From: an uncultured Bacteroidota bacterium
GTDB taxonomy: Bacteria; Bacteroidota; Bacteroidia; Flavobacteriales; Flavobacteriaceae
NCBI GenBank assembly: GCA_902517895.1
Contig: CABYEA010000001.1
Coordinates: 1-64,000, forward strand
Length of the DNA stretch: 64,000 nucleotides
Direction: 5' to 3'
In this document: positions 19,263-34,545 of the stretch, piece after piece
How positions within the stretch are numbered: position 1 is the stretch's first letter
Layout of the letters: each line of letters begins with the position of its first letter
The notes under the pieces: model-generated
What the model was told of the DNA's origin: nothing
Seen by the model: only the letters and a program-made list of their open reading frames with translations
Database searches by the model: none
Program-made: the position numbers and the translations under genes

Positions 19263-19267
19263 TAATA

Positions 19268-20413
19268 ATGCAAATTAAACGACTATTCTTAATTATTTTC
19301 TTCTTTATAATCGAGCACAATTATTGTCAGGTCAACAGCTTTGAAGGCGATATAATTGATTACAATTTTGATTCTGACACAATCAAAAATAGACTTGCAA
19401 GACTAGATGCTAAAACTCCTTTAGAGCTGTATTTTACCCCAGAGGTTGAAAAAATAATAAAAAGATATTTAAAAACAAGGGTAGATTTTTACAACGATAA
19501 TATTGAAAAAATCAGATTTTATCTTCCTCTTTTCGAAGAACATTTGCAAAACAATCAAATTCCGATAGAAATAAAATATCTTCCGATAATTGAGTCTAGG
19601 CTAGACCCAACCGCCGTCTCAAAAGTTGGTGCTACAGGCCTCTGGCAATTTATGTTTTACACCGCACTTGAAAATGACCTGAAGATGAATAGTTATATTG
19701 ATGAAAGAATGTCCCCTTTAAAGTCTACAATAGCAGCAGCAACGTATTTGAAAAAACTCTATAAAATACATTCCGACTGGAACCTTGTTCTTGCTTCTTA
19801 TAACGCGGGTCCAAGAACAATATCTAGAGCAAAAAAACAGTCAGGGGGACATACAAATTACTGGAACATAAGACCGTTTTTACCAACAGAAACAGCCAAC
19901 TATGTTCCCTCATTTATCGCCACGATGTATATATTAGAATATGCTGACGAGCACGGAATTAATTTGCATATTTCAAAAAGACCTATCTTAAAAACTGAAA
20001 AAGTCTTAATAAAAGAAAAATTTGCATTTGAACATTTTTCTAAATTTTTTAACTATTCAATAGATTCAATAAAAGCATTAAACCCTTCTTATATTCATGA
20101 AATTATTCCTGGGCAAAATGTTAATTCAGTTACTCTACCTATAAACTTAGCTGATAAACTAATTGAAAACGAAGATGAATTTTACATTTTTTCAAAAGCT
20201 GAATTTGATAAAAGGGAAAAACCTCTACCAGACCTATACTCAATAGATTCAAAACTTATATACAAAGTGAGGTATGGGGAATTTCTTGGAAAAATTGCAA
20301 GAAAATTTGGAGTTAAAATTGCGGATATTAAACGCTGGAATAATCTTAAAAATGACAACATAAAGGAAAACCAAAAACTAATTATATTTCCTAAAAGAAT
20401 TCCCAAAAATTAA
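19268..20413 (+). CDS. MltD-like lytic transglycosylase with LysM domain
   Basis: The enzyme cleaves peptidoglycan glycan strands to 1,6-anhydro products. After a signal peptide (about residues 1-20), the SLT domain carries the catalytic glutamate E109 in IIESRLDPTAVS, then GATGLWQFM at 121-128 and LASYNAGP. A degenerate LysM-like segment follows (about 240-290), and a clear LysM domain closes the protein at about 332-378 (YKVRYGEFLGKIARKFGV). The 381-residue size fits flavobacterial MltD homologues. It sits between pgk and the DUF4837 gene in the same transcription unit. Confidence 0.9.
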   Translation: MQIKRLFLIIFFFIIEHNYCQVNSFEGDIIDYNFDSDTIKNRLARLDAKTPLELYFTPEVEKIIKRYLKTRVDFYNDNIEKIRFYLPLFEEHLQNNQIPIEIKYLPIIESRLDPTAVSKVGATGLWQFMFYTALENDLKMNSYIDERMSPLKSTIAAATYLKKLYKIHSDWNLVLASYNAGPRTISRAKKQSGGHTNYWNIRPFLPTETANYVPSFIATMYILEYADEHGINLHISKRPILKTEKVLIKEKFAFEHFSKFFNYSIDSIKALNPSYIHEIIPGQNVNSVTLPINLADKLIENEDEFYIFSKAEFDKREKPLPDLYSIDSKLIYKVRYGEFLGKIARKFGVKIADIKRWNNLKNDNIKENQKLIIFPKRIPKN

Positions 20414-20444
20414 TTATTGTAAATTGGTCTTATAGTTTTAAAAA

Positions 20445-21392
20445 ATGAAGAAAAAAGCATTGATTTTGTTTTTTTTAGTCTTATTCTTATCATGTTCTGA
20501 TAACAATGAAAAGCTTTTGCCGAATTCAAGCGGAAACATTAATAATATTTCGGTAGTCTCAAGTGATGAGATCTGGGAAGGGAAAGTTGGAGAAGCTATT
20601 AGACAAAATTTTGGTCGCCCAATCTATGGCCTACCACAAATCGAGCCTGTTTTTAACCTTAGTCATATTCCAAGTAAGATATTTACAGGTTTTGCAACAA
20701 AATCAAGAACAATTTTAAAGATTGATATTTCTGAAATAGAAGGAGTTTTTAATTTCAAAAACACTTACGCTTCACCTCAAAGAATAATTCAGGTAACCGG
20801 CGCAACACCAGAACAGATAATTACAATTATTAACAAAAACATCAACTCTATATACTCCGCCTTATATTTTAATGAGATTCAAGAGAAGCAAAGAAGAATT
20901 GCAAAAAACTTAAATCAAACACAAGCCATCAAAAAAAGTATAGGCTTGACACTACGATTTCCTTCTGCTTACAGAGTCGCAAAAGTTGACAGTAACTTTG
21001 TCTGGATAAGAAGAGATATAGAAACAGGTTCGGTTAATCTTTTTGTCTCAAGATATAGTGACAAAAACAACAGCTCTGTTGTGAAAATAAGAGACTCAAT
21101 TTCTAAGCATCATATTCCTGGGCCTATTGAAAACACATTTATGTCAACAGACCCTATATATACACCAAGTTCACAGCAGATTAATATAAGAGGTAAACAA
21201 ATATTAGAAACAAGGGGTTTATGGGAAATAAAGGGACAATTTATGGCTGGGCCGTTTTTAAACTATCAATTTGAATCTAACACGAAACAGGATGAATATA
21301 TAATGTTGGACGGATTTGTTTATTCGCCCGGGTCAAGTAAAAGGGATTATGTCTTTGAGATAGAGGCTATTATGAGAAGTCTTAAAAATTAG
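20445..21392 (+). CDS. DUF4837 family lipoprotein
   Basis: This 315-residue protein has a lipoprotein signal (LFLSC, Cys at about 17). The mature part matches the Bacteroidota-restricted DUF4837 family, recognised from the IWEGKVGEAIRQNFGRPIYGLPQIEP start and the C-terminal GLWEIKGQFMAGPF region. Function is unknown; the protein is expected on the periplasmic face of a membrane. In Flavobacteriia the order MltD-like, DUF4837, TatA, M23 peptidase, GH3 is conserved, which suggests an envelope role. It overlaps convergent tatA by 4 bases. Confidence 0.82.
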   Translation: MKKKALILFFLVLFLSCSDNNEKLLPNSSGNINNISVVSSDEIWEGKVGEAIRQNFGRPIYGLPQIEPVFNLSHIPSKIFTGFATKSRTILKIDISEIEGVFNFKNTYASPQRIIQVTGATPEQIITIINKNINSIYSALYFNEIQEKQRRIAKNLNQTQAIKKSIGLTLRFPSAYRVAKVDSNFVWIRRDIETGSVNLFVSRYSDKNNSSVVKIRDSISKHHIPGPIENTFMSTDPIYTPSSQQINIRGKQILETRGLWEIKGQFMAGPFLNYQFESNTKQDEYIMLDGFVYSPGSSKRDYVFEIEAIMRSLKN

Positions 21393-21678: not shown

Positions 21679-22545
21679 GTGAAAAACAAAAAACAAAATA
21701 AAACCTTTTTAAAAAGAATATTTAACGACTATAAGGTTGTTGTTTCAAACGAAGACACATTCGAAGAGAAAATTTCCTTCAAGGCTAATAAAATAAATGC
21801 ATTTATTATAATATTATTATACTCCATAATATTGATTGCATTTACAATTAGCATTGTTTTTTTTACCCAAATCAGAGAAATGGTGCCAGGATATTCTTCA
21901 TCAGATCTTTTGAATAGAGCCATATATCTTACAAAAAAAACAGATTCATTAGAACAACAAATAACCCTTAATAATAAGTTTTATAAATCGATTGAAGATG
22001 TTCTTTCTGGAAATGTAGATGAGTTTATCTCTAGAGATGAGCTATCAATAGAAAGCAATTTAATTAACACAGATGTTTTTACAATTTTACCAAACCTTCA
22101 AGATTCTATTCTTAGAAAATATGTTGAAAACGAGGATAAGTTTAACTTGACTAACAATGAGCTTGTTATTGAAAATAAAATGTTTTTTTCTCCAATTAAA
22201 GGTGAAATAACACAAAGCTTTAACCTTAATGAAAATCATTTTGCTATTGATATAGCAGCTGATGTTGGCACACCAGTTAAGTCTGTACTTGATGGAAAAA
22301 TTATTTTTTCAGAGTGGTCACTTGATACAGGCTATGTTGTTGTCATTGATCATGGAGAAAACATAATTTCAGTTTATAAGCATAATTCAAAAATATTAAA
22401 AGAACAAAATGATTTCGTTCAAGCTGGAGAAGTGATTGCTTATTCAGGTAATCAAGGAAATTTAAGCTCTGGACCACATTTACATTTTGAACTTTGGAAA
22501 AACGGCATCCCAATAGACCCAGAGCCCCTATTAAATTTTAAATAA
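21679..22545 (+). CDS. M23 family metallopeptidase (LytM-type endopeptidase)
   Basis: The 288-residue protein has a cytoplasmic basic start, one transmembrane segment (about residues 40-62), a helical stem, and a C-terminal M23 domain. All zinc and catalytic residues are present: H187 and D191 in HFAID, and HLH at 267-269 in SGPHLHFELW. It should cleave peptide cross-links in peptidoglycan from the periplasmic side of the inner membrane. The start GTG 21679 is preferred over TTG 21670 because the latter lies in a promoter box. GH3 follows after two bases. Confidence 0.9.
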   Translation: MKNKKQNKTFLKRIFNDYKVVVSNEDTFEEKISFKANKINAFIIILLYSIILIAFTISIVFFTQIREMVPGYSSSDLLNRAIYLTKKTDSLEQQITLNNKFYKSIEDVLSGNVDEFISRDELSIESNLINTDVFTILPNLQDSILRKYVENEDKFNLTNNELVIENKMFFSPIKGEITQSFNLNENHFAIDIAADVGTPVKSVLDGKIIFSEWSLDTGYVVVIDHGENIISVYKHNSKILKEQNDFVQAGEVIAYSGNQGNLSSGPHLHFELWKNGIPIDPEPLLNFK

Positions 22546-22547
22546 TA

Positions 22548-24050
22548 ATGCTAAAGCATGTTCTTCTAAAAATAGTTTCAAGGCTTGCAAAGAGGCAAGT
22601 TTACAATTGGGCAAACAAGCCAATCGTAACCCAGGAAAACCAATTCAACTATTTAATCAAAAAAGCTCGAAACACTAAATTTGGGCAGGATCATGCGTTC
22701 TCGGAAATATCAAATTACCAAGAATTCAAGAAGAGAGTGCCGATAAGAGATTATGAGGGGCTTAGAGACTACTTTGAAAAAGTTAAATCTGGAAAAAAGG
22801 ATATTTTATGGCCCGGAAAACCAATTTATCTTGCTTTAACTTCCGGGACGACTTCGGGTGCAAAATATATTCCCATCACGAGGGAAAGTTTACCAAACCA
22901 TTTAAACGGAGCAAAAAATGCTTTGTTGATTTACGTTGCAGAAACTAATAAAACAAGCTTTGTCAATGGTAAATATATTTTTGTTCAAGGCAGCCCTATA
23001 CTAAAAGATATTTCGGGTATATTGAGCGGCAGACTTTCAGGGATTTCTGCTCATCATGTGCCGTTTTACATGAGAAGTAACATGCTTCCATCTTGGAAGA
23101 CAAACATCATTGAAGACTGGGAAAATAAGGTCGAAAATATAGTTAAAGAAACAACCAGAGAAGACATGACAATTATTAGCGGCATCCCATCATGGCTTCA
23201 GATGTATTTCGAAGCAATAGTCAGAAAAACCAATAAACAGATTTCAGAAGTATTCCCAAATTTTAGCCTTTTGATTTATGGAGGAGTAAATTTCAAACCA
23301 TATAAAAAAAAGTTCCTTTCGTTAATTGGGAAGGAAGTTGACAGTATTGAGCTTTTTCCTGCAAGCGAGGGTTTTTTCGCCTTTCAAGATAAGCAAGACA
23401 ACAACGACCTTCTTCTAATCCTGAATGCCGGAATTTTTTATGAGTTTATTAATGTTGAGGATTTTAGAGAGAATAGGCTAGAAAGAATATCACTTCAAAA
23501 TGTAAAAAAGGATATAAATTATGTTATGGTTATTTCTAGCTCCGCAGGATTGTGGGGATATAATACTGGCGATACGGTAAAGTTTACAAGCATAAGCCCA
23601 TACAGAATTATTATCACAGGAAGACTTAAGCAGAGCCTATCTGCTTTTGGAGAACACGTAATTGTTAAGGAGGCTGAACAAGCCATTGAACAAGCAATTT
23701 TAAAAACTGGAAATATGGTTGTTGAGTTTACAGTAGCCCCAAGATTTAAATCAGAGTCTTTACCAGCTTGTCACGAGTGGTTTATTGAATTTGACACACA
23801 GTCTGAAAAAATTAATTATTTTAAGGATATTTTAGACTATGAGCTTCAAAAACAAAATAAGTATTATAAAGATTTAATCAAAGGGAAAATTATAAGCAAA
23901 CCTATGATAAGAAAAATAAAAAAAGACGGCTTCAAAAAATATATGAAAACCATTGGAAAACTTGGGGGACAAAATAAAATCCCCAAGATTTCTAATGATA
24001 GAAAAATTGCGAAAGAGTTAGAAAAGCTAAATCTAATTGAAGAACTCTAA
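22548..24050 (+). CDS. GH3 family acyl-adenylate/amide synthetase
   Basis: This 500-residue protein belongs to the GH3 family, known from plants as enzymes that adenylate jasmonate or auxin and join them to amino acids. The ATP-binding loop is TSGTTSG at residues 98-104. Other family features are the SGIPSWLQMYFE region, YGGVNFKPY and FPASEGFFAFQ with its conserved glutamate, and GYNTGDTVKFT. The bacterial substrate is not known. In Flavobacteriia the gene regularly follows an M23 peptidase, as here, which hints at an envelope or lipid substrate. Confidence 0.87.
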   Translation: MLKHVLLKIVSRLAKRQVYNWANKPIVTQENQFNYLIKKARNTKFGQDHAFSEISNYQEFKKRVPIRDYEGLRDYFEKVKSGKKDILWPGKPIYLALTSGTTSGAKYIPITRESLPNHLNGAKNALLIYVAETNKTSFVNGKYIFVQGSPILKDISGILSGRLSGISAHHVPFYMRSNMLPSWKTNIIEDWENKVENIVKETTREDMTIISGIPSWLQMYFEAIVRKTNKQISEVFPNFSLLIYGGVNFKPYKKKFLSLIGKEVDSIELFPASEGFFAFQDKQDNNDLLLILNAGIFYEFINVEDFRENRLERISLQNVKKDINYVMVISSSAGLWGYNTGDTVKFTSISPYRIIITGRLKQSLSAFGEHVIVKEAEQAIEQAILKTGNMVVEFTVAPRFKSESLPACHEWFIEFDTQSEKINYFKDILDYELQKQNKYYKDLIKGKIISKPMIRKIKKDGFKKYMKTIGKLGGQNKIPKISNDRKIAKELEKLNLIEEL

Positions 24051-24096
24051 AATATTTTATAAAAAAAATCGTTTAAAAAAAACCAAAAACAATAAA

Positions 24097-25071
24097 ATGA
24101 AAAAAAATTTTAAAGAAAAAGATGAGCTTGAGATAATTGTTTTAATGCAGAAAATCAAGATAATCTTTCTAAACATTCTACTTCAAATTTTTAGAAAATC
24201 AAAACTATTTTTAACTGCTTGGAAGCAATTATTAGTAATAATTCTTTTAGGGGTCTTTTCAGGGTATTTAAGTACTGACGCAGAAACCCCTATCCCTAAA
24301 GAGGCGACAGTTCTTGTGAAAATCAACTTTGACGCAGGCAATTTTGTTTATGATGCCGTTGATTTAATCAATTTAAAAATCTCAAGTGGGGATACAGAGT
24401 TTTTTATTCAGGAAATGAAGCTAAATTTTGATGAGAAAATTGATAAAGTCTCTATCTCGCCTGTTATTGATATCAAGGATATAATGGCAAAGGACATAAA
24501 AGCAAATGAAATTAGAGTTTTGTTTGAAAACATTGAATATGAGGACGGCCTTGTAGTAGCTGATGGATTTAAATCTGACTATGACTATCATTTTATTAAG
24601 GCTAAAGTGTCAGATAATTCATCGATACTAACGATAAACAAAATAGTTGATTACTTTAATAATAACCCACTATTTAAAGAGCTAAAAGAAAGAAACATTC
24701 AAAGAATTTCAAGTATTATTTCGGACAATGAACAAACCATAAACCAAATTGACAAATTAATAGAATACTATACCTCACACGATAAAAGCAACAGCTCTCA
24801 GCTTTACATTGACAACAAAGATATTAGCCCAAATGACCTTATAGCTACAAAAATTCTGTTACAGAGTGAAAACCAAGAGCTAAAAAAGGAAAGTTTGATT
24901 AGTAAACAGACTGTAATGATGATTAATGAAGCAAACGTTATGATTGAAGACCACTCACTGCTTTCAAATAAAATGATTTTTTACCCAATAGTTTTTTTAT
25001 TATTTTATGTTTTTATCATGTTTATTCGCAGCACCTATTCTTATTTAGACAAATTAGATACAGCCAGCTAA
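24097..25071 (+). CDS. Wzz-like chain-length determinant or polysaccharide co-polymerase
   Basis: The protein has a short cytoplasmic part, a transmembrane segment at about residues 46-58 of the 324-residue form (QLLVIILLGVFSGYL), a large periplasmic region with helices rich in Glu, Lys and Ile, and a C-terminal transmembrane segment (FYPIVFLLFYVFIMFI). This topology is that of Wzz-type co-polymerases, but sequence similarity is weak and the kinase domain of Wzc is absent. The start is ATG 24097; an in-frame ATG at 24037 would overlap the GH3 gene by 14 bases and add 20 very basic residues. It opens the polysaccharide locus. Confidence 0.55.
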   Translation: MKKNFKEKDELEIIVLMQKIKIIFLNILLQIFRKSKLFLTAWKQLLVIILLGVFSGYLSTDAETPIPKEATVLVKINFDAGNFVYDAVDLINLKISSGDTEFFIQEMKLNFDEKIDKVSISPVIDIKDIMAKDIKANEIRVLFENIEYEDGLVVADGFKSDYDYHFIKAKVSDNSSILTINKIVDYFNNNPLFKELKERNIQRISSIISDNEQTINQIDKLIEYYTSHDKSNSSQLYIDNKDISPNDLIATKILLQSENQELKKESLISKQTVMMINEANVMIEDHSLLSNKMIFYPIVFLLFYVFIMFIRSTYSYLDKLDTAS

Positions 25072-25072
25072 A

Positions 25073-26356
25073 ATGCCAATAAAAGACCTTACAAAAAAAA
25101 GTTTATATGTCTTAATCATAAGGTCTATTGGAGTTTTACTTTTATTTGCTTTTACACTTTTCATTACCAATTATTTTAGCGCAGTAGATGTTGGCAGGTA
25201 TGATTTTGTCAGGTCTGTTGTTATGGTTTTGGGCGGCATTGCACTAATGGGGACCAACCAATCAATTATTTATTATTCCGGGTTATTAAAAGCCAGAAAC
25301 AGCATTGAGTCCATAAGAGCGGTGTATTTTAAAATGTTAAGAATAATAGCCTTAATAAGCCTTATTATTTTTTGTTCTTTTGTTCTCTTTTTTAGTGAGA
25401 GATCTATAAACGAACTATTTAATAATGAAGTGTCCTTCAGTCTTTTGCTAAAATCAATTTTAGTATTAATTTTTTTCTCTCTTACTATGCTGAACATTGA
25501 CACAATAAGGGCGCTTCAAAAAACTATTTTATCAGAGATTTATAGAAGTATATTTAGATATCTTCCAGTGTTTTTATTTGCACTACTTTTGATTAAATTT
25601 AACAAAGACTCTTATTTAGTTGAGGCGTATCTTATGGGCTTTATTTTGCTGTCATTTTTTTCCAGTATCACTGTATATAGATTATTGAGGAAGCTTAAAA
25701 AGCCAATTGAAGATACTGAAAAAGTTTCCCTAGCTCAACTTATCAAAACTTCGGCGCCAATGGCGCTTAGCGCAATAGCATATTTCATTATGCAAAGTAT
25801 AGATGTAATTATTCTTTCAATATATGAATCGTTTGAGCAAATTGCCTATTACTCGGTTTCCGTAAAATTGGCAACAACTACAGCTTTGGCCCTAATGTCA
25901 GTAAATATTGTAATTGCCCCTAAAATTGCAGAAATATATGAAAGGGGAAGCACACACGAAATGCAAGAAATAATAATACAATCAACAAGAATTATTTTCT
26001 TTATAAGCCTTTGTATTCTAAGCATTTTGTTTTTATTCTCAGACCAAATATTGAGCTTTTTTGGATCTAGCTATGTTGCAGCAAACAAAGCTCTTTTGTT
26101 TTTATTAGCGGCCCAGTTTTTCAGCGCAGCTTCAGGCCCTGGAGCTATATATTTAAACATGACAGGGCGTCAAATAGTATTGAACAAAATATTATTATTG
26201 GGCCTACTATTAAACATTGGCTTAAATTTTTATCTTATTCCGATTGAGGGAATTAACGGGGCAGCAAAGGCAACCTTAATTAGTTTGGTTTTATGGAATT
26301 CAATAACGATGATGTATATCTATTCAAATGATAAAATAAAAATATTTTTAAACTGA
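25073..26356 (+). CDS. Lipopolysaccharide/polysaccharide flippase (MATE/Wzx-like)
   Basis: The 427-residue protein is a polytopic membrane protein with about 12 to 14 hydrophobic segments and the oligosaccharide flippase architecture: the N-terminal half contains FTLFITNYFSAVDVGRYDFVRS, a typical family opening, and the second half repeats the motif style. It would flip undecaprenyl-linked repeat units across the inner membrane. It starts one base after the Wzz-like gene and is followed two bases later by a sulfotransferase gene. Confidence 0.82.
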   Translation: MPIKDLTKKSLYVLIIRSIGVLLLFAFTLFITNYFSAVDVGRYDFVRSVVMVLGGIALMGTNQSIIYYSGLLKARNSIESIRAVYFKMLRIIALISLIIFCSFVLFFSERSINELFNNEVSFSLLLKSILVLIFFSLTMLNIDTIRALQKTILSEIYRSIFRYLPVFLFALLLIKFNKDSYLVEAYLMGFILLSFFSSITVYRLLRKLKKPIEDTEKVSLAQLIKTSAPMALSAIAYFIMQSIDVIILSIYESFEQIAYYSVSVKLATTTALALMSVNIVIAPKIAEIYERGSTHEMQEIIIQSTRIIFFISLCILSILFLFSDQILSFFGSSYVAANKALLFLLAAQFFSAASGPGAIYLNMTGRQIVLNKILLLGLLLNIGLNFYLIPIEGINGAAKATLISLVLWNSITMMYIYSNDKIKIFLN

Positions 26357-26357
26357 C

Positions 26358-27257
26358 ATGATCAAGCCCAATTTTATAATTGCTGGGTTTCCGAAATGTG
26401 GAACCACATCTCTTCATTATTATTTAGATGAACATCCGGAAATATTTATGCCCAAGAAAAAAGAGCTACACTTTTTTACCTATCAAAATCTATCTCAACT
26501 AAACTCAGGCCCCAAGGATAAAATTGTTATTCAAACTCATGTTGACAGCGCAGAAAGGTATTTAAGTTATTTCAAAGGTGTAAAAGACGAGACTGCTATT
26601 GGAGATACCTCACCATCTTACATTAACCACCCCAGTGTATTTCCAAAAATAAAAAAATATTTGAATGACCCAAAGGTTATAATCATGCTTAGAGACCCGG
26701 TAAATCGCGCATATTCAAATTATTTACACCTTAAGAGAGAGCAGAGAGAAAAGCTTACTTTCAAGCAAGCAATTAAAATCGAGAAAGAAAGAAAAAAATC
26801 AAAATATTCTGATTTTTGGTATTACAAATTTAACTCCATGTATTCTCAAAAAATCATTGGAGCAAATAAGGTGTTTAGTAAAATTTTAATTTTAACCTTA
26901 GAGGAGCTTAATAAAAACCCTACAGAAACAATGAAAAAAGTTTACCTTTTCTTAGATGTTGATGCCAATTTCAAACCGCAAGCTACTGAGAGCAGATATA
27001 ACGTGGGTGGAAACTATGAAAACAACTTTTTTACAAAGATTATCTTCCAGCCCTCACTTTTCAAAAACTATATTAAAAGAATTGTCAAACCATCTCCTTT
27101 CATAAAAAAAATATTAATGTATGCCTCAAGGTTTTTTATTTCCAAAACTGAAAAAATTGACAAGAAATTACTTAATGAGCTAAAAATATTCTTTAAAAAG
27201 GATGTTGGTAAATTATCTGACCTTAATGTCGACATTTCCAATTGGAGAAAATATTAG
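26358..27257 (+). CDS. Sulfotransferase (PAPS-dependent)
   Basis: The 299-residue protein has the 5'-phosphosulfate-binding loop GFPKCGTTSL at residues 10-19 and the 3'-phosphate-binding segment LRDPVNRAYSNY at about 111-122 (R112, S120), both diagnostic of PAPS-dependent carbohydrate sulfotransferases. The KKELHFF segment after the loop is also typical. In this polysaccharide locus the acceptor is most likely a sugar of the repeat unit, so the polymer may be sulfated. No PAPS synthesis genes are in the window. Confidence 0.88.
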   Translation: MIKPNFIIAGFPKCGTTSLHYYLDEHPEIFMPKKKELHFFTYQNLSQLNSGPKDKIVIQTHVDSAERYLSYFKGVKDETAIGDTSPSYINHPSVFPKIKKYLNDPKVIIMLRDPVNRAYSNYLHLKREQREKLTFKQAIKIEKERKKSKYSDFWYYKFNSMYSQKIIGANKVFSKILILTLEELNKNPTETMKKVYLFLDVDANFKPQATESRYNVGGNYENNFFTKIIFQPSLFKNYIKRIVKPSPFIKKILMYASRFFISKTEKIDKKLLNELKIFFKKDVGKLSDLNVDISNWRKY

Positions 27258-27267
27258 AATTTAAGAG

Positions 27268-28629
27268 ATGACTTTAAAAAAAATTATCTTACCCATATTG
27301 CTAATTGGAATTTTCTTTATTCCATTTAATTCATGGTCAGGTCTGGAGTTTTTAGGTGAATACCACAGGGATGCATGTTTTTTGTTTTTTATCATAGCTT
27401 TTGCTTTGACAATTTTTAAAAAGAGAATAAAAATCCCGGTGTATAATTTAACATTTCAACTCTTGATTCTCTTTATCATTTGGGCATTCTTTTCAATGAT
27501 ATTTAATTCTAATAACATAGCAGATTATTACTTCAAACAAACAAACGGATTTTATAGGTTTATCAGCCAATTTGGATCTTTAATTATTGCCGCAATGATT
27601 GTTCCACTGACGTTTTATAATGGGCTTTTTGGATCTAGCCTTAGGCAATCACTAACCATAATACGCAAAATAATTCTTTTTTCCCTTGTAGTAGTTACTA
27701 TCTACGCCGCAATTGAAATAATGATAGTAAAGTTAAACATGCTATATTTAAAAAAACCAATTTTAAATTTATTTGACTACTTTCCTTTTACAGAAGCAAG
27801 AATTGATATTAGAACAAAGAGAATTTCTTCGGTTTCCTTTGAGTCTCCAGCTTTAGCTACATATCTAATATCTATATTTGGCTGGATGTTTAGCTACATA
27901 TTTACCGAGGCAAAAAAAATTAAATATTTACCTGTTATAGTTGTATTGTTATTGTCTTTTATGTCGGGATCTAGAAGCGCGTTTTTCATCATAATTATTC
28001 AGCTTGTCTTTGCGGTTTTTATAACTTTTAATAGCCTAAAACTTAGAAGTGTCTTCTTGAGAACAGGACTTTTTTCTGCAGCTTTGTCAATATTTTTGAT
28101 AATATATTTTTATAAGCCAATAAGCTCTTATTTAAAAAATGAAATAAACTCTTTTAGATTGGATGACTCCACACACGCGCTTTCAAATAAATCTAGATTT
28201 GGAATCCAACAAGCAATGTTCAAAGTTTTTTTAGAGCACCCAATTACAGGGACAGGATATGGGCTACAGGCATTTGAGTCTTGGAAAAAATATCCTGTTT
28301 GGGCAAAAAATAATAATTGGGAGTTTAGATTGCGATATTTAAATCCAAACTATAAATCATTCCCCCCTGGATACAACCTGTATTTAAGAGTTTTAAGTGA
28401 GACGGGTATAATTGGGTTTTTAATTTTTGTAACTTTTCTTGCACAAATCTTCTATGTATGCTTAAAAAACATTAACAAAAACAGGGTTTTAAATTTTATT
28501 ATCCTGACTTCAATGTTAGGGTTCTATTTAAACTGGTTAAAATCAGATTCGTTTAGGGTTTATTTCTTTTGGATATGTATATCCTTGGTTTATTTATCAA
28601 GCACAAATAAATTAATTTATGAAAAATGA
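27268..28629 (+). CDS. O-antigen polymerase/ligase-like membrane protein, copy 1
   Basis: A 453-residue polytopic membrane protein with about 12 hydrophobic segments and a Wzy/WaaL-type long periplasmic loop near residues 290-370, ending with HPITGTGYGL, the short motif seen near the end of that loop in the Wzy_C family. The charged arginine-rich segment MSGSRSAFF is also typical. It should polymerise repeat units or ligate the glycan to a carrier. Its 3' end overlaps the GT2 gene by 11 bases. Confidence 0.7.
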   Translation: MTLKKIILPILLIGIFFIPFNSWSGLEFLGEYHRDACFLFFIIAFALTIFKKRIKIPVYNLTFQLLILFIIWAFFSMIFNSNNIADYYFKQTNGFYRFISQFGSLIIAAMIVPLTFYNGLFGSSLRQSLTIIRKIILFSLVVVTIYAAIEIMIVKLNMLYLKKPILNLFDYFPFTEARIDIRTKRISSVSFESPALATYLISIFGWMFSYIFTEAKKIKYLPVIVVLLLSFMSGSRSAFFIIIIQLVFAVFITFNSLKLRSVFLRTGLFSAALSIFLIIYFYKPISSYLKNEINSFRLDDSTHALSNKSRFGIQQAMFKVFLEHPITGTGYGLQAFESWKKYPVWAKNNNWEFRLRYLNPNYKSFPPGYNLYLRVLSETGIIGFLIFVTFLAQIFYVCLKNINKNRVLNFIILTSMLGFYLNWLKSDSFRVYFFWICISLVYLSSTNKLIYEK

Positions 28630-29410
28630 TTTACTTATTATAATACCGTTTTTTAACGATTCCAGTCAGCTTGTCAAATCATTAAAAACAATAGAAGAGG
28701 ATATTATGGTTGATGTATTGTTAATCGATGATGGAAGTGACAAAAACTTTGACATACCAACAGTCAAAGAACTTAACAGATGTATTTCAAAAATTAAATA
28801 CATACGAAATGAAAGGAACCTAGGAATTTCAAAAACCCTGAATATTGGTCTGGAATATTCTAAAAAGAAACAATACAAATTTATTGCTAGACTAGATGCT
28901 GGCGACTTTTTTTATAAAAACAAACTTACTAAACAGTATAATTATCTAATTGAGAATAAAGAGACAAAATTACTTGGGACTTGGGCTAGGGTTATTGACA
29001 CTAATGGTAAATTTTTATACCACCTTAAACATCCAACAGAATATAATAAAATTAAAAAAAAAATGTTCATAAATTCGATGTTTATTCACCCTTCGGTTAT
29101 GTTCTCAAGCGACATACTCAAAAAAACTAACTTATACCCTACGAATTACAAAGCAGCTGAGGATTATGCATTTTTCTTTAAAGTTATAAATGAATTTAAA
29201 TCAGAGAATTATCCAGAAATATTAATGGATTATACTATTTCAGAAGAATCTATATCATCCAAATTGAGGAATACCCAGGTTATTAATAGGCTTAGAATAA
29301 TTATTGACAACTTTAAGCTTGGGTTTTACCCTCTTTATGGAATATTAAGAAACATCGCCTTGCTATTCCTTTCCAGAAGAGTAACAACAGCTCTAAAGCG
29401 ATTAAAATAA
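28619..29410 (+). CDS. Family 2 glycosyltransferase
   Basis: The 263-residue protein has the GT-A fold of family 2. The N-terminal strand LLIIIPFFNDSSQLVKSL leads to LLIDDGSD, then RNERNLGISKTLNIGLEYS, and ARLDAGD is the DxD-like metal site. It lacks long membrane segments, apart from a hydrophobic C-terminal helix, so it probably adds a sugar on the cytoplasmic face to the lipid-linked repeat unit. The donor and linkage cannot be told. It overlaps the preceding Wzy-like gene by 11 bases. Confidence 0.88.
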   Translation: MKNDLLIIIPFFNDSSQLVKSLKTIEEDIMVDVLLIDDGSDKNFDIPTVKELNRCISKIKYIRNERNLGISKTLNIGLEYSKKKQYKFIARLDAGDFFYKNKLTKQYNYLIENKETKLLGTWARVIDTNGKFLYHLKHPTEYNKIKKKMFINSMFIHPSVMFSSDILKKTNLYPTNYKAAEDYAFFFKVINEFKSENYPEILMDYTISEESISSKLRNTQVINRLRIIIDNFKLGFYPLYGILRNIALLFLSRRVTTALKRLK

Positions 29411-29416
29411 AAGCAA

Positions 29417-30622
29417 ATGAATAAAAAGCTTGATCAAATATATTTAGCACTCGGATGTTTTGTCTGCCTATTTATGCCCCTAACGTCCTATGCAAAGGCA
29501 TTGCCAAACATAATCTCAATATGCATGTTTTTGATTTTATTAATAGCCAAAGAAACATCCTATAAAAACTTTATTAAAGAGTCTTTCATTAAGCCTCTAA
29601 TACTATTTTTAGCATACATTATTTTACTGTCATTGTTTAACCTTTCTACTCTAAAGGATTATTCAGAAATATTAAATATAATACACTTAATTTCTTTGAT
29701 TTTCATTTTTTATAACATCAAAAACAAGAAATATTTGATAAATTTTTTTGTTTTAGGTGTTGCAATAAGCAGTTTGATAACCATTTATAAAATACTATTA
29801 CTAAATCAAAATTTACACAGTCTTGTTTTGGCTGGCGCCGTTGTTGAAGAAGTTTTCGTTACACAAAGATTATATCTTGGCCTATTTATTTTAATCTCTT
29901 TAATATTTTGTGTAGATAGATTGTTTAAATCCAACAAAAAAACTAACATAATATTCAATTTAACTCTGATAGTGTTTTTTAGTTCCCTAATCTTTATATT
30001 TTCGTCAAGAAGCTCAATTATAATATTCCTTGTAGTTTTTTTGACTTTATTGATATATAAACGGCGCTTCTTTTTAAAACAAAAAGTTTATTTGGCTACC
30101 TTTTGCTTTATATTGTCAGTTTCAATAATCGTCAGCTGGAACACATTAGAAAAAAGATTTTTATATTCAGACGACAGAGAATCAAAAGATTTAATTAGCA
30201 AGATAGTAAAGCACGAGCCACGTTTTTTAATTTGGAAGTTCTCTTTTGAAATTTTTTCTGAAAACAAAAATTATTTACTAGGTCTTGGCAATAAACAGAC
30301 TCAAGACTTGTTAATAGGGAAGTATTCAAAGATGGAAAACAAGAAAAGAAGCAGCTGGTTTATTGAAAGAGAATTTAACACACATAATCAGTTTTTAGAC
30401 TTTGCTTTAAACTATGGGTTAATTGGATTAATCTTATTTGCAAACCTCTTCATTAAACTGTTTTTTTCTTTTAAGAAAAATATCTTTGCGGTAAGCCTTA
30501 TATTGACCCTTTTAATTTTTACCTCTTTGGAGAATGCTTTAAACCGTCAAATAGGAATTTATTTATTTGCCTTTTTAATAATTATTTCAGCAGACTTTAT
30601 AAAACAAGAAGCAAATGAATAA
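29417..30622 (+). CDS. O-antigen polymerase/ligase-like membrane protein, copy 2
   Basis: A second, distinct 401-residue polytopic protein of the same general type, with about 10 to 12 hydrophobic segments and an FSSRSSIII segment followed by a periplasmic loop that contains LLGLGNKQTQDLL and a THNQFLDFALNYGLIGL motif. The latter resembles the HNxxLxxxxxxGxxGL signature of O-antigen ligases and polymerases. One of the two copies may be the Wzy polymerase and the other a WaaL-like ligase. Its stop overlaps the GT4 gene by 8 bases. Confidence 0.72.
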   Translation: MNKKLDQIYLALGCFVCLFMPLTSYAKALPNIISICMFLILLIAKETSYKNFIKESFIKPLILFLAYIILLSLFNLSTLKDYSEILNIIHLISLIFIFYNIKNKKYLINFFVLGVAISSLITIYKILLLNQNLHSLVLAGAVVEEVFVTQRLYLGLFILISLIFCVDRLFKSNKKTNIIFNLTLIVFFSSLIFIFSSRSSIIIFLVVFLTLLIYKRRFFLKQKVYLATFCFILSVSIIVSWNTLEKRFLYSDDRESKDLISKIVKHEPRFLIWKFSFEIFSENKNYLLGLGNKQTQDLLIGKYSKMENKKRSSWFIEREFNTHNQFLDFALNYGLIGLILFANLFIKLFFSFKKNIFAVSLILTLLIFTSLENALNRQIGIYLFAFLIIISADFIKQEANE

Positions 30623-31745
30623 GAAAAAAATTCTTCATGTAGCAAATTTAGTAGGTGGCGTTGAGGTCTGTATAAGGCAGATAATAAATAATATTGACCA
30701 TAGTAAAATAATTAGCTTAGTTGCATCACAACCACTGAACGGGAAAGAGAAAATTTTAAATAGTGATCAAAAAGAAGTTAAAGTTTTAAAGATCCCAATT
30801 CAAAGAGAAATAAATTTATTCAGAGATATTGTATGCTTTTTTAAGCTTTTAAGAATAATAAAGACAGAGAACCCTGATTTAATTCACGCCCATAGCGCCA
30901 AGGCAGGAGTTTTGTGCAGAGTCGCCTCAAAATTCATTGATATTCAAGTCTTTTATACACCTCATGCTTTCTCGTTCCTAAGCGCTCAAAACAAGCTCTT
31001 AAAAAAACTCTATTTGAACATCGAGCGTTTAACAATTTCTAAGAGAACTTTAATTGTGGCAACTTCTGAATCAGAGATGAAACTTGCAATTAATGAGGTG
31101 GGATATAAAGCAAAAAATACTTTTGTTTTAAAGAATGCAATTAAAATAGAAACTATTTCAAAATCAAGATCAGAAATTACCAAAGGGATTGAAAACTATA
31201 TTTGTACAGTAGCCAGGCCCTCTTTTCAAAAAAACTTAGAGATGTTGATAGATGTTTTTAAAATAGTTTCTAAAAATGATCAAAACCTACATTTGTTTAT
31301 ACTGGGCGCTGGAGAATACAGTCCACAAAAAGATCATATAAAAAAGCTTATTACAAAAGAAGGTTTAAACAAAAGAGCAACAATTACACCTTGGATTTCA
31401 AGGAATGAAGTGCAAAAAATTTTGATGCACTCAAAGCTTTATGTTTCAACTTCTAGATATGAAGGGTTGCCATACTCTGTGCTAGAGAGTATGCGTTTTC
31501 GGGTACCCGCTGTTCTTACAAACTGTTTCGGGAACAAAGATCTTATTGTTGAAAATAAAACAGGGTTTTTAGTTAAGCTTAATCAAACGAATATTATGGC
31601 AAAAAAAATCTTGGAATTAACATCTGATCAAGTAAAAAGGGAAAAATTTGGCCATTGTGCTTATGAGCTATTAAATAAAAGACATAATTTTGAAGAGTAC
31701 ATAGAAACACTAACAAACCTATATTCGAAGCTTTCGAAAAATTAA
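30615..31745 (+). CDS. Family 4-type glycosyltransferase (GT-B)
   Basis: The 376-residue protein has the two Rossmann-like domains of GT-B enzymes. The N-terminal part has HVANLVGGVEVCIRQII and the DLIHAHSAKAG segment; the C-terminal donor domain has ICTVARPSFQKNLEMLID, GAGEYSPQK and the ExxxE-type STSRYEGLPYSVLESM motif of the glycosyltransferase group 1 family. It probably adds a hexose or related sugar to the repeat unit. It overlaps the Wzy-like gene upstream by 8 bases. Confidence 0.87.
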   Translation: MNKKKILHVANLVGGVEVCIRQIINNIDHSKIISLVASQPLNGKEKILNSDQKEVKVLKIPIQREINLFRDIVCFFKLLRIIKTENPDLIHAHSAKAGVLCRVASKFIDIQVFYTPHAFSFLSAQNKLLKKLYLNIERLTISKRTLIVATSESEMKLAINEVGYKAKNTFVLKNAIKIETISKSRSEITKGIENYICTVARPSFQKNLEMLIDVFKIVSKNDQNLHLFILGAGEYSPQKDHIKKLITKEGLNKRATITPWISRNEVQKILMHSKLYVSTSRYEGLPYSVLESMRFRVPAVLTNCFGNKDLIVENKTGFLVKLNQTNIMAKKILELTSDQVKREKFGHCAYELLNKRHNFEEYIETLTNLYSKLSKN

Positions 31746-31901
31746 CTTTTATTATCACAATTTTTAGAAATCCAATGCGTTCTAAAAAAACTAATTTAAA
31801 TTATTGTTTTTTAGTTTTTTGTATGTATTATTCTTTACACTAAGTCTTGCAACAGTATTTAAAATGCCTACCAAAACAGAAATAAAATAAATAGTTATTT
31901 A
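31746..31901 (+). other. 156-bp gap inside the polysaccharide locus
   Basis: This is the only long break in the plus-strand run from 21.7 to 34.5 kb. It is AT-rich. I see no exact TAnnTTTG box with a sensible position, no strong terminator, and only trivial small ORFs. It may hold a weak internal promoter for the initiating transferase and purD. Confidence 0.5.
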
Positions 31902-33260
31902 ATGGTAAAAAAACAAGCAGGAAGATATTCAAAGTACTTAAGACCGATTTCTATGGCTTTTGATTTACTTGTTATTAATTTTTTTATCTATTTATTTTTA
32001 GACAAAAGCTTATTTAAGTTAGCCCCCGTTCTTATATTTTCTTCCTTTTGGATAACTTCTTCTTTAATTACCAAATTTTATGAGGTATACAGATTTACCA
32101 AATTGATTAGCATTATTTCATATATTTTTTATCAATTATTATTATTCTCAATATTAGTCTTTGCTTTTTTTGGGATTGTTCAAAACGTAGCACCAGGCTT
32201 ATCCCAAACTCTAAAATTTCTGTTAGTTGTATTTACTCTTATTTCTTTGTTTAAGCTCTCCTTATTTTATGCTTTACAAAGTTACAGGCTGGGGTTTGGG
32301 GGGAATTTCAGAAAAACTATTATTATCGGAAACAATGAAGCAGTTAATGAACTTAAAGAATTCTTTAAAACTCAAAAGGAGCTTGGATATGAAAACATTA
32401 AAACATTTAACTTTAATTCTGCGTCGGATTTAAACCTTCAAAATTGTTTTGAATTTATTATATCAAGACATATTGATGAGGTTTATTGTTCAGCTAATGA
32501 ACTAGACGAAAATCAGATAAAACACTTAATTGAGTTTTGTGAAAATAATTTTAAAATTTTAAAATTTATCTCAAAAAGAGGGGGTCTTTTGTCAAAAAAA
32601 CTTAAAACTGACATATACGGGCTTTCAACAGTTCAATCTCTGAGAGAAATGCCCCTATCAAATGATTTTAATACACTATTAAAGCGCTTATTTGATATTG
32701 TCTTTTCTCTGTTAGTAATCTTATTATTACTTTCCTGGCTCACACCAATATTTGCATTTCTTATAAAGATAGAAAGTAAAGGCCCTGTATTTTTTAAGCA
32801 AACTAGAAATGGCATTAAATATAAAGAGTTTATATGTTATAAGTTTAGATCGATGATTCAAAACAATGATGCGGATATACAACAGGCAACTAAAAATGAC
32901 AAGAGGGTAACCAGATTTGGCAGAATTTTAAGAAAAACAAGTCTTGACGAGTTACCACAGTTTTTTAATGTACTAATTGGCAACATGTCTGTTGTTGGAC
33001 CAAGGCCACACATGATTAAAGAAAATGAAAGATATTCAAAGTCAGTTAATAAGTTTATGGTTAGACACTTTGTAAAACCAGGCATTACAGGGTTGGCTCA
33101 GGTAAAAGGATTTAGAGGAGAAGTTGAAACAGATGAAGATATAATAAACAGGGTAAAACATGACATTTACTATTTAGAAAACTGGTCTTTAATCTTGGAT
33201 TTAAATATTGTATTTTTGACAACAATTAATTTTTTAACTGGCCAAAAGAAGGCATATTAA
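31902..33260 (+). CDS. Exopolysaccharide polyprenyl glycosylphosphotransferase (initiating transferase)
   Basis: The 452-residue protein resembles WcaJ/CpsE-type initiating enzymes, which transfer a sugar-1-phosphate to undecaprenyl phosphate. There are four N-terminal membrane segments (about residues 15-110), a CoA-binding-like Rossmann region (KTIIIGNNEAVNELKEF), one further membrane helix at about 270, and the catalytic bacterial sugar transferase domain with FKQTRNG, CYKFRSM, RKTSLDELPQFFNVLIGNMS, VGPRP and FVKPGITGLAQVKGFRGE. It should start repeat-unit synthesis for the locus upstream. Confidence 0.92.
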   Translation: MVKKQAGRYSKYLRPISMAFDLLVINFFIYLFLDKSLFKLAPVLIFSSFWITSSLITKFYEVYRFTKLISIISYIFYQLLLFSILVFAFFGIVQNVAPGLSQTLKFLLVVFTLISLFKLSLFYALQSYRLGFGGNFRKTIIIGNNEAVNELKEFFKTQKELGYENIKTFNFNSASDLNLQNCFEFIISRHIDEVYCSANELDENQIKHLIEFCENNFKILKFISKRGGLLSKKLKTDIYGLSTVQSLREMPLSNDFNTLLKRLFDIVFSLLVILLLLSWLTPIFAFLIKIESKGPVFFKQTRNGIKYKEFICYKFRSMIQNNDADIQQATKNDKRVTRFGRILRKTSLDELPQFFNVLIGNMSVVGPRPHMIKENERYSKSVNKFMVRHFVKPGITGLAQVKGFRGEVETDEDIINRVKHDIYYLENWSLILDLNIVFLTTINFLTGQKKAY

Positions 33261-33273
33261 ATTTTAAAACCTA

Positions 33274-34545
33274 ATGAACGTATTAATATTGGGCTCGGGA
33301 GGTAGGGAGCATGCCTTTGCTCACAAGATCAGACAAAGTTCATTGTGTAAAAATTTATATGTAGCACCTGGGAACTCTGGAACGGGTGAAATAGCATCCA
33401 ATTTAGAAATCAAAGTGAATCAATTCGAACAAATAGTAGATGCTATTAAAAATTTAAATGTTTCATTAGTGGTTGTTGGGCCTGAAGTTCCTTTAGTAAA
33501 TGGCCTAACAGATTTTATAAAAGGTGACAGCGATTTGAAGGACATAATCGTAATAGGCCCAAATAAGCATGCTGCTCAGCTTGAGGGGAGTAAAGATTTT
33601 GCCAAAGATTTTTTAAATAGACACAATATTCCGACAGCTTCACACAAGACCTTTACCGATGAAAATATTAAAGACGCTTTCTCATATATTGATGAAATGA
33701 AGTCTCCGTATGTTTTAAAGGCTGATGGATTAGCGGCAGGCAAAGGGGTATTAATAATTAAAGATCCTGATGAAGCTAAAAAAGAGCTTAAAGAAATGCT
33801 GATAAATTCAAAATTTGGAGAAGCAAGTAAAAGTGTTGTCATTGAAGAGTTCTTAGAAGGTATTGAAGTAAGCTGCTTTATTATTACTGATGGCAAACAT
33901 TACAAGTTATTACCAAGTGCCAAGGATTATAAAAGGATAGGTGAAGGCGATACAGGCCTCAACACCGGAGGTATGGGTGCTGTTTCACCACCAACTTTTT
34001 TGACAAAAGAGTTTATGGAAAAAGTTGAAAATCAGGTTATCAAGCCAACCGTTGAGGGGTTAAAAAAAGATAATATAAATTATCAAGGGTTTATATTTTT
34101 TGGACTCATCAAGGTAAATGAAGAGCCTTATGTTATTGAATATAACGTAAGAATGGGTGATCCTGAATCAGAGGTAGTCTTACCAAGAATAAAATCTGAT
34201 ATTATGGAGATGTTTTTTGCAGTTGGCAAAGGGAATTTAAAAGATCATAAAATTACAATCGATAATAATAAAGCAGCAACTGTATTTTTAGTTTCCGGCG
34301 GATACCCTGAGAAATATGATAAAAATAAGGAAATCTTTGGCCTAGATTTAGTTCAAGATTCTATGGTTTTTCATGCTGGAGCTAAGTATGAAAATGGTAA
34401 ACTCAAAACAAATGGAGGAAGAGTTATCGCTATTACTTCAAAAGCTAATACGATCAAAGAGGCACTAGAAATGTCTTACAAATCAATCAAAAATATCAGC
34501 TTTGAGAAAATGAATTATCGAAAAGACATAGGCTTTGACTTATAA
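33274..34545 (+). CDS. purD: Phosphoribosylamine-glycine ligase
   Basis: PurD (GAR synthetase) joins glycine to phosphoribosylamine in purine synthesis. The 423-residue length is standard. Signatures are the N-terminal LILGSGGREHAFAHKI (residues 3-18), the ATP-grasp region YVLKADGLAAGKGV, and the NTGGMGAVSPP and YNVRMGDPE motifs. It follows the sugar transferase after 13 bases, a common flavobacterial arrangement although the pathways differ. The stop overlaps the convergent DUF6341 gene by 6 bases. Confidence 0.96.
   Translation: MNVLILGSGGREHAFAHKIRQSSLCKNLYVAPGNSGTGEIASNLEIKVNQFEQIVDAIKNLNVSLVVVGPEVPLVNGLTDFIKGDSDLKDIIVIGPNKHAAQLEGSKDFAKDFLNRHNIPTASHKTFTDENIKDAFSYIDEMKSPYVLKADGLAAGKGVLIIKDPDEAKKELKEMLINSKFGEASKSVVIEEFLEGIEVSCFIITDGKHYKLLPSAKDYKRIGEGDTGLNTGGMGAVSPPTFLTKEFMEKVENQVIKPTVEGLKKDNINYQGFIFFGLIKVNEEPYVIEYNVRMGDPESEVVLPRIKSDIMEMFFAVGKGNLKDHKITIDNNKAATVFLVSGGYPEKYDKNKEIFGLDLVQDSMVFHAGAKYENGKLKTNGGRVIAITSKANTIKEALEMSYKSIKNISFEKMNYRKDIGFDL

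Follow-up and report, generated by a model that had tools for sequence, protein, structure and literature searches.

A cysC-linked nucleotidyltransferase as candidate ATP sulfurylase for a sulfotransferase-bearing glycan locus in an uncultured Flavobacteriaceae bacterium

Introduction

In genome annotation, ATP sulfurylase is normally sought as one of two families, CysDN or Sat, and the sulfurylase half of the animal enzyme that makes 3'-phosphoadenosine 5'-phosphosulfate (PAPS) is of the Sat type (PF01747). A sulfated capsule is reported for Cobetia marina KMM 1449, for which the gene cluster has been published and the sulfate of the polymer proven chemically (PMC11766843). Phages that carry cysC, the gene of adenosine 5'-phosphosulfate (APS) kinase, are reported to be larger on average (PMC10914622), and phage cysC has been read as serving assimilatory sulfate reduction (PMC10914622, PMC9529941); the terms nucleotidyltransferase and sulfurylase are absent from the main texts of both reports. 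Here, a surface glycan locus with a PAPS-type sulfotransferase is described from an uncultured, presumably marine, Flavobacteriaceae bacterium, together with the genes that may supply it with PAPS, namely cysC and NT2, a 150-amino-acid (aa) nucleotidyltransferase encoded behind cysC. The locus occupies positions 21679 to 33260 of the window, by which is meant the whole 64,000-nucleotide stretch analysed (GenBank assembly GCA_902517895.1, contig CABYEA010000001.1, positions 1 to 64,000 of the forward strand). Among open-access PMC titles and abstract starts, none describing this nucleotidyltransferase with cysC was found.

The locus probably directs a sulfated surface glycan of the Wzx/Wzy type, the sulfate of which would be activated by CysC and NT2, with NT2 as a candidate ATP sulfurylase. 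In the proposed route, a WcaJ-type transferase would start the unit on a lipid carrier, the glycosyltransferases (GTs) GT2 and GT4 would extend it, and the sulfotransferase would add sulfate from PAPS, after which the flippase would turn the unit outwards and the Wzy_C proteins would polymerise and/or ligate it. The PAPS would be made elsewhere in the genome by CysC plus NT2, an HxGH nucleotidyltransferase that would stand in for CysDN or Sat as ATP sulfurylase (ATP + sulfate -> APS + PPi).

Sulfate activation genes in the genome and the genus

A search for PAPS-synthesis genes had been suggested in the preliminary description of this stretch, and its outcome is divided: cysC is present, but the assembly (1.26 Mb, 41 contigs, 68% complete) holds no match to PF01507, the CysD/CysH family, or to PF01747 (Sat), CysN not having been searched by itself, and a cysC-NT2 pair is found instead. 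Because about a third of the genome is missing, the absence of CysD and Sat is provisional. CysC itself is the single APS kinase match of the genome and scores over both model cut-offs (TIGR00455, 255.7 against 138.7; NF003013, 262.8 against 163). It is encoded on another contig (G000:C3:20197-21624; L005:4198-5625) in the order cysC-NT1-NT2, with NT2 at G000:C3:21172-21624 and NT1 a second nucleotidyltransferase, downstream of ftsZ- and galE-like genes and upstream of metK-ahcY; beyond these genes lie an UpxY-like antiterminator gene (98.6 bits, cut-off 100) and nucleotide-sugar genes.

The 119 genomes searched include 21 of the same genus (56-86% complete), the present one among them. Twelve cysC loci of the genus were compared, the organism's own and 11 fetched, and ten of them show cysC-(NT1)-NT2, with NT1 between the two in five; in the other two (G005 and G017), cysC adjoins cysD and is followed by cysN-/cysQ-like genes, as judged by eye. 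None of the ten cysC-NT2 loci has cysD beside cysC. CysC shares 51-53% identity with its cysD-linked counterpart in the genus. Behind NT2, metK and ahcY or metH-/metF-like genes (by eye) follow in several genomes.

This alternation extends to whole genomes. NT2 is found in 11 of the 21 genus genomes, the rest of the 119 giving three weak matches (E 8.7e-5 to 1.6e-4). CysC is encoded by 57 of the 119, of which 47 also have CysD and no NT2, and the ten without CysD all have NT2. The hypergeometric probability of such a split is 2.3e-11 if kinship is ignored and 0.015 within the genus; the lists were compiled by hand and restricted to strong matches to CysC (E < 1e-46) and to the CysD type, and the CysD of one genome (G102) is partial at a contig edge.

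NT2 in other cellular genomes

A scan of GTDB genomes returned 20 NT2 loci, 17 of them with cysC adjoining; nine (L153-L156, L158-L162) were already among the genus contigs, and cysC stands beside NT2 in eight of the 11 new ones. Seven of these belong to other Flavobacteriales (L166-L172) and combine cysC-NT2 with cysQ in every case and with sulfotransferases in six; the two loci read fully have, in this order, cysC-NT2, a deoC-type gene, cysQ, a flippase and sulfotransferases, and L169 adds aldehyde-dehydrogenase-like genes. No match to PF01507 or Sat was found in any of the seven genomes, the completeness of which is not given. On a contig filed under a gammaproteobacterial metagenome-assembled genome (L163:1-4547), NT2 lies between epimerase-like and metH-like genes; this NT2 (78% identity) and the metH-like gene resemble those of the Flavobacteriales genus, and the contig is possibly misbinned.

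Two Nitrospirales contigs (L164:22-2879 and L165:1-3082) place NT2 directly behind an APS reductase gene and a gene of the NirA family of nitrite and sulfite reductases; the reductase of L164 scores 274.5 on TIGR02055 (cut-off 235.3). APS is the substrate of CysC and also of APS reductase. Since both kinds of neighbour use APS, the simplest common role for NT2 would be to make it.

NT2 in viral contigs

The same partnership recurs in viruses. From IMG/VR, which assigned the viral status, 60 NT2 loci in 32 clusters at 90% identity were obtained, and every cluster has an APS-kinase-type gene, within ~110 bp of NT2 in 31 and 0.8 kb away in one (per locus, 59 of 60, the 60th beginning at a contig edge). 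CysD or CysN is found in none of the 32. In five clusters, kinase and NT2 share one open reading frame (ORF), and Pfam recognises a kinase and a nucleotidyltransferase in a single chain for L179, L184:5401-6450 and L217. The existing phage family PHROG 10255, labelled 'kinase', is matched by CysC at positions 6-85 and by NT2 at 134-227, and so contains a two-part protein of the same kind. Moreover, the NT2 genes of one cluster occur with a normal CysC in some loci and with a shorter, diverged kinase in others (L191:5025-5990 and L187:5540-5998), as if either kinase could serve the same partner.

Sulfotransferase-like genes accompany NT2 in 12 of the 32 clusters, as counted with a profile (STX) whose training set included three of the viral proteins; all 13 candidates put to Pfam exceed a cut-off (12 for PF13469 and one for PF03567), and these cover 11 of the 12 clusters, the candidate of L177 not having been scanned. 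In L176, a Sulfotransfer_2 gene sits between cysC and NT2 themselves. In the reverse direction, a viral CysC scan with a query drawn mostly from NT2-linked loci shows, among the best 80 of 139 loci, near-copies included, NT2 in 46, within 1 kb in 44 of them, and no match to CysD or CysN. A local Sat profile matched all 80 of these loci, presumably through a kinase part that three of its four training proteins, long chains of 561-579 aa, seem to include; its hits were disregarded, so that the viral negatives for CysD and CysN do not extend to Sat.

In a tree of NT2, the cellular copies fall into two separate groups among the viral ones, which is consistent with separate acquisitions, several deep forks being weak and one row very long.

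Sequence and predicted structure of NT2

At E 0.01, the only family matched by NT2 is PF01467 (CTP_transf_like), with no Sat domain (PF01747). Models of nicotinamide mononucleotide adenylyltransferase (NMNAT) score it far under their cut-offs (NF002243, 50.4 against 127; TIGR01527, 44.3 against 181.2). In an alignment of 45 NT2 sequences, the GRxQPxHxGH motif is invariant, the stretch RDI.PD..NPFTT is conserved, and ES.N..RGVGYEIN is invariant almost without a break, R97 and the run Y101-N104 being among its invariant residues. The predicted structure (mean predicted local distance difference test score, pLDDT, 77.6; predicted template modelling score 0.75) is nearest to the NMNAT 1f9a (Z 13.1, root-mean-square deviation 2.0 over 121 residues), tied with the phosphopantetheine adenylyltransferase 7yy2 (Z 12.7). 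No ATP sulfurylase is among the 50 matches listed by the VIA-align structure comparison, a result that excludes nothing.

Weighing the evidence

Given the linkage to cysC, the shared ORFs and the split from CysD, APS formation by NT2 appears most likely; sulfation of the window glycan is probable. Several observations nevertheless weigh on the other side. The ten genomes with CysC and no CysD all come from a single genus, and none of them is complete (65-86%); eight other genomes of the genus have weak PF01507 matches (E 7e-5 to 9e-4), which were not counted as CysD; and 5 of the 15 genus genomes with the sulfotransferase of the window show neither CysC nor NT2, by incompleteness or true absence. 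In sequence and fold, NT2 is closest to adenylyltransferases of nicotinamide mononucleotide (NMN) and phosphopantetheine, and its residues 92-100 and 102-104, a likely substrate loop, are modelled at pLDDT < 50. Among viruses, one of the shared ORFs (L212) retains no more than a short kinase end and another (L203) was not put to Pfam, many partners are diverged kinases with 28-35% identity to CysC, and NT2 has no match in 34 of the best 80 of 139 cysC loci. Annotated phage records, 50,697 in number, gave 12 tblastn matches to NT2, each of which covers less than 80% of it at under 60% identity, and two of these (H1 and H2) have no cysC-labelled neighbour. Moreover, cysC is not beside NT2 in L163 to L165, Sat is also encoded in the two Nitrospirales genomes and in the bin of L163, and G123 (L157) has NT2 plus a strong CysD-type match (E 7.7e-42). 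Because of these Sat and CysD-type genes, NT2 is not the only possible sulfurylase everywhere, and G123 and the Nitrospirales speak against simple replacement.

It is unlikely, though the chance is real, that PAPS supply is ordinary, with a normal CysDN or Sat encoded in the third of the genome that the assembly lacks, NT2 being a mere neighbour of cysC. The incompleteness of the assembly, the cysC-cysD loci of G005 and G017 within the same genus, and the coexistence of NT2 and a CysD-type match in G123 are all in its favour. However, a gene of general supply would be expected in most genomes of the genus, and strong CysD matches occur in only 2 of the 21, whereas cysD adjoins cysC in none of the ten cysC-NT2 loci, the seven other Flavobacteriales with the pair have neither PF01507 nor Sat matches, and some phages encode NT2 in one ORF with the kinase. 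A very improbable explanation is that NT2 is an NMN-type adenylyltransferase and its linked kinase a nucleoside kinase, the two serving NAD salvage and, in phages, countering NAD-depleting defence. NMNAT is indeed among the closest folds and sequences of NT2, and phages are known to carry NAD-salvage genes; yet the cellular kinase partner exceeds the APS kinase cut-offs, the neighbours include cysQ, sulfotransferases and APS reductase, and NT2 is far from the NMNAT cut-offs. In addition, NadD (TIGR00482) is above its cut-off in 18 of the 21 genus genomes, so NT2 is not needed for NAD.

A CysC-like kinase in Campylobacter jejuni serves phosphoramidate, and CysC and NT2 might likewise make a different 3'-phosphonucleotide donor, whose group, rather than sulfate, would be moved by the sulfotransferase-like proteins. 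NT1, placed between cysC and NT2 in half of the ten genus loci, and the adjoining metK and ahcY or metH-/metF-like genes (by eye) of several loci agree with such chemistry, which is nonetheless judged quite improbable: CysC scores above the adenylyl-sulfate kinase cut-offs and is about half identical to the cysD-linked CysC of its genus, NT1 is missing from the other half of the genus loci and matched in only 1 of the 60 viral ones, and the Nitrospirales NT2 follows APS reductase, not a kinase. As regards the acceptor, which cannot be read from sequence, the sulfotransferase could act on a lipid or protein rather than on the glycan of the locus, or the glycan could be unsulfated under most conditions; the GH3 gene of the same gene run, which points to lipid or amide chemistry, lends this idea some weight. 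It is held to be a minority possibility, as the sulfotransferase stands between flippase and Wzy in all 14 genus loci fetched, and the order ST-WzyA-GT2-WzyB-GT4 (ST, sulfotransferase; WzyA and WzyB, the two Wzy_C proteins) is kept in a genome of another genus (G034) that has no M23-GH3 in the 10 kb upstream.

On balance, we lean towards NT2 being an ATP sulfurylase of a third kind, ~150 residues long and from a different family, that would replace CysDN in some marine Flavobacteriales. Many phages would bear it in a portable sulfation kit of sulfotransferase, APS kinase and NT2, in some cases fused to the kinase in a miniature PAPS synthase, and sulfation, not sulfate reduction, would then often be the purpose of phage cysC. 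If this is true, a small sulfurylase annotated as a generic nucleotidyltransferase makes genomes and phages wrongly look unable to make PAPS, phage cysC is to be re-read in terms of sulfation rather than reduction, and the NT2 route offers a compact PAPS-making enzyme. The source of activated sulfate in sulfotransferase-bearing bacteria without CysDN or Sat thereby becomes a testable matter.

The glycan locus of the window

All ten genes named in the preliminary description were found on the plus strand, at the positions given there. The run opens with an M23 family peptidase gene (21679..22545; PF01551, 104 bits; one hydrophobic stretch at 45-63; longest ORF from 21670) and a GH3 gene (22548..24050), followed by a candidate Wzz-like chain-length protein (WzzL, 24097..25071; longest ORF from 24037) and a Wzx-type flippase (25073..26356; PF01554 MatE, 42.3 bits against 24.9; PF01943 Polysacc_synt, 28.8 against 28.2). 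The PAPS-type sulfotransferase gene (26358..27257; PF13469, 62.2 against 27; PF00685, 51.1 against 22) comes next, and then those of WzyA (27268..28629; PF04932, 55.2 bits), GT2 (28619..29410; PF00535, 61.4 bits), WzyB (29417..30622; PF04932, 57.0 bits) and GT4 (30615..31745; PF00534, 116.5 bits), WzyA and WzyB being Wzy_C membrane proteins that may act as polymerase or ligase. The initiating polyprenyl-phosphate hexose-1-phosphate transferase (PGT) of the WcaJ type (31902..33260; PF02397 Bac_transf, 222.8; TIGR03025, 356.2 against 295.55) is slightly below the cut-off of TIGR03023 (397.7 against 410.75). Of the components of a Wzx/Wzy locus, an initiating sugar-phosphate transferase, a Wzx flippase and Wzy, as two Wzy_C proteins, are present.

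The distances between genes from M23 to GT4 are, in order, 2, -14, 1, 1, 10, -11, 6 and -8 bp. Gaps of 46 bases or less had been reported, which holds if the Wzz-like gene starts at the later ATG (24097), whereas with the longest ORFs the range is -14 to 10 bp; the 156 bp between GT4 and the initiating transferase were given correctly, and a further 13 bp separate the latter from purD. Upstream of M23 there is a 277-bp gap. Terminator-like sites are at shuffle level (9 observed against 7.4 +/- 2.6), and a promoter scan is likewise near shuffled sequence. The flanks consist of pgk, a transglycosylase/LysM gene and a DUF4837 gene on the left (18078..21392, plus strand) and purD on the right (33274..34545, plus strand; domains of GARS, the purD product). 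Further right, at 37538-40051, the window encodes the Type IX secretion protein PorW/SprE (NF052312, 618 bits), behind GT9 heptosyltransferase-like and DUF6165 genes.

The Wzz-like protein is a candidate by its size, its position and its hydrophobic stretches, two near the N end and one near the C end. Neither Pfam nor NCBIfam (E 0.01) has a family that recognises it, PDB sequences give no match at E 1, and a 12-sequence profile likewise finds nothing in PDB at E <= 1. It is present in 13 of the 14 ST-bearing genus loci fetched, the 14th being cut, and is 23-29% identical to glycan-locus proteins in 6 of 20 other relatives.

The sulfotransferase looks genuine (phmmer E 4.1e-51 to the solved sulfotransferase 3rnl), and the glycan of the window is probably sulfated. 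The initial proposal of a Wzx/Wzy-type glycan locus with a PAPS-type sulfotransferase is supported by the genes present, by their conservation in the genus and by some relatives (G034, G048, G049, G058) that have cysC and cysD at a distance of ~4-7 kb from a sulfotransferase gene. Sulfated surface glycans had been called rare in bacteria; relatives of the sulfotransferase are not rare here, for 53 of the 119 genomes, the present one included, have a match at E <= 1e-3. Taken by itself, the locus is a sound example of a sulfated surface polymer locus, though not a surprising one. A second, distant sulfotransferase of this genome (G000:C9:51331-52254; L006:14332-15255) has a GT4-like gene on one side and a flippase on the other; proteorhodopsin-like and beta-carotene dioxygenase-like genes (by eye) are a few kb away.

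Conservation of the locus

Besides the present genome, 14 of the genus encode an orthologue of the sulfotransferase (58-67% identical), which makes 15 of 21, and G034 has one of 51% identity. The loci of these 14 genomes were compared; among the remaining genomes of the genus, those of G003, G004, G011 and G018 were not fetched. The full order M23-GH3-WzzL-Wzx-ST-WzyA-GT2-WzyB-(GT4 position)-PGT-purD recurs in 13 of the 14, the last (G015) being interrupted by a contig end, and because of this recurrence the order is not due to chance. PurD follows the initiating transferase in all 14, as two ORFs in L076, and the left flank keeps its order in the loci that extend that far, with an extra minus-strand ORF in L072. 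The least conserved gene is that of GT4, with partial matches of 20-23% in six loci, no blastp match at its position in seven, and 63% identity in G012.

Divergence is concentrated inside the locus. Between the window and G013, G016 and G017 (L069, L070 and L071), the outer genes (pgk to GH3, PGT and purD) are 83-94% identical, whereas the inner glycan genes (window 24097-31745) range from 22 to 73%: WzzL and Wzx 70-73%, the sulfotransferase 66-67%, WzyA 63%, GT2 47-48%, WzyB 39-40%, and GT4 22-23% or unmatched. Since these inner genes diverge more than the outer ones, the inner cassette looks as if it has been swapped between conserved flanks. The same flanks enclose another cassette without a sulfotransferase in G008, and the contig of G009 stops after WzzL. 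In G034 (L081, G034:C1:950000-969999), the conserved ST-to-GT4 order lies ~4 kb from cysC-cysD, and M23-GH3 is not in the 10 kb fetched upstream of the ST cluster.

The M23-GH3 pair

The window GH3 belongs to the Gretchen Hagen 3 acyl-adenylate/amide-synthase family, Pfam and NCBIfam having rejected a glycoside hydrolase of family 3; its N-terminal, central and C-terminal domains are all above cut-off (PF03321, 128.7; PF23571, 50.6; PF23572, 69.5). Such a membership suggests lipid or N-acyl amino-acid chemistry and not sugar hydrolysis. The nearest described relative, OlsH, is reported as a GH3-like lyso-ornithine lipid synthetase of planctomycetes, whose homologues outside that group may use other amino acids (PMC12493201); the OlsH model NF052613 covers nearly all of the window protein (residues 14-492 of 500), but the score is under the cut-off (401.7 bits against 620).

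Of the 119 genomes, 116 encode GH3 proteins, the present one included. In a selection of 20 further GH3 loci, 16 have M23 as the next gene upstream, across a single minus-strand ORF in the case of G042, and glycan genes after GH3 are clear in eight, partial in two (G050, G040) and lacking in ten, with labels such as Rml, GT and Wzz-like given by eye from protein starts or weak blastp rather than by profile. In G048, G049 and G058, chosen for a nearby sulfotransferase, M23-GH3 lies at one end of the fetched stretch and cysC and cysD inside it. The joining of M23-GH3 to a glycan locus therefore stands as adjacency, but it is shared Flavobacteriales synteny, and the idea that the junction is peculiar to this organism was rejected. 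It is an old shared arrangement that by itself says little about function, and a functional tie of these old neighbours to the glycan is putative.

Comparison with known systems

NT2 shares with the NadM type of NMNAT the HxGH nucleotidyltransferase fold and the GR-QP-H-GH motif, but it departs from that type in its scores far below the cut-offs, in its own ES.N..RGVGYEIN stretch and in its sulfur-gene neighbours. The phage CysC-NT2 ORFs resemble the animal PAPS synthase, reported as a fusion of APS kinase and ATP sulfurylase (PMC3734648), in joining an APS-kinase domain and a nucleotidyltransferase in one chain; they differ in that NT2 is a ~150-aa protein whose sole family match is the broad CTP_transf_like. 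With the reported phage auxiliary metabolic genes cysC and cysH (PMC10914622, PMC9529941), the viral loci have a phage-borne cysC in common, yet unlike those reports, which speak of sulfate reduction, the NT2 partner and the nearby sulfotransferases here point to sulfation. As for the locus itself, the cluster described for Cobetia marina likewise brings GTs and a sulfotransferase together and also holds the genes of PAPS supply (PMC11766843). Export there is by an ABC transporter (kps), whereas the window locus is of the Wzx/Wzy type, and the Cobetia cluster has the normal cysNC-cysD-cysQ with a sulfate permease, in contrast to the bacterium described here, in which cysC-NT2 lies on another contig and no CysD was found in the 68%-complete genome.

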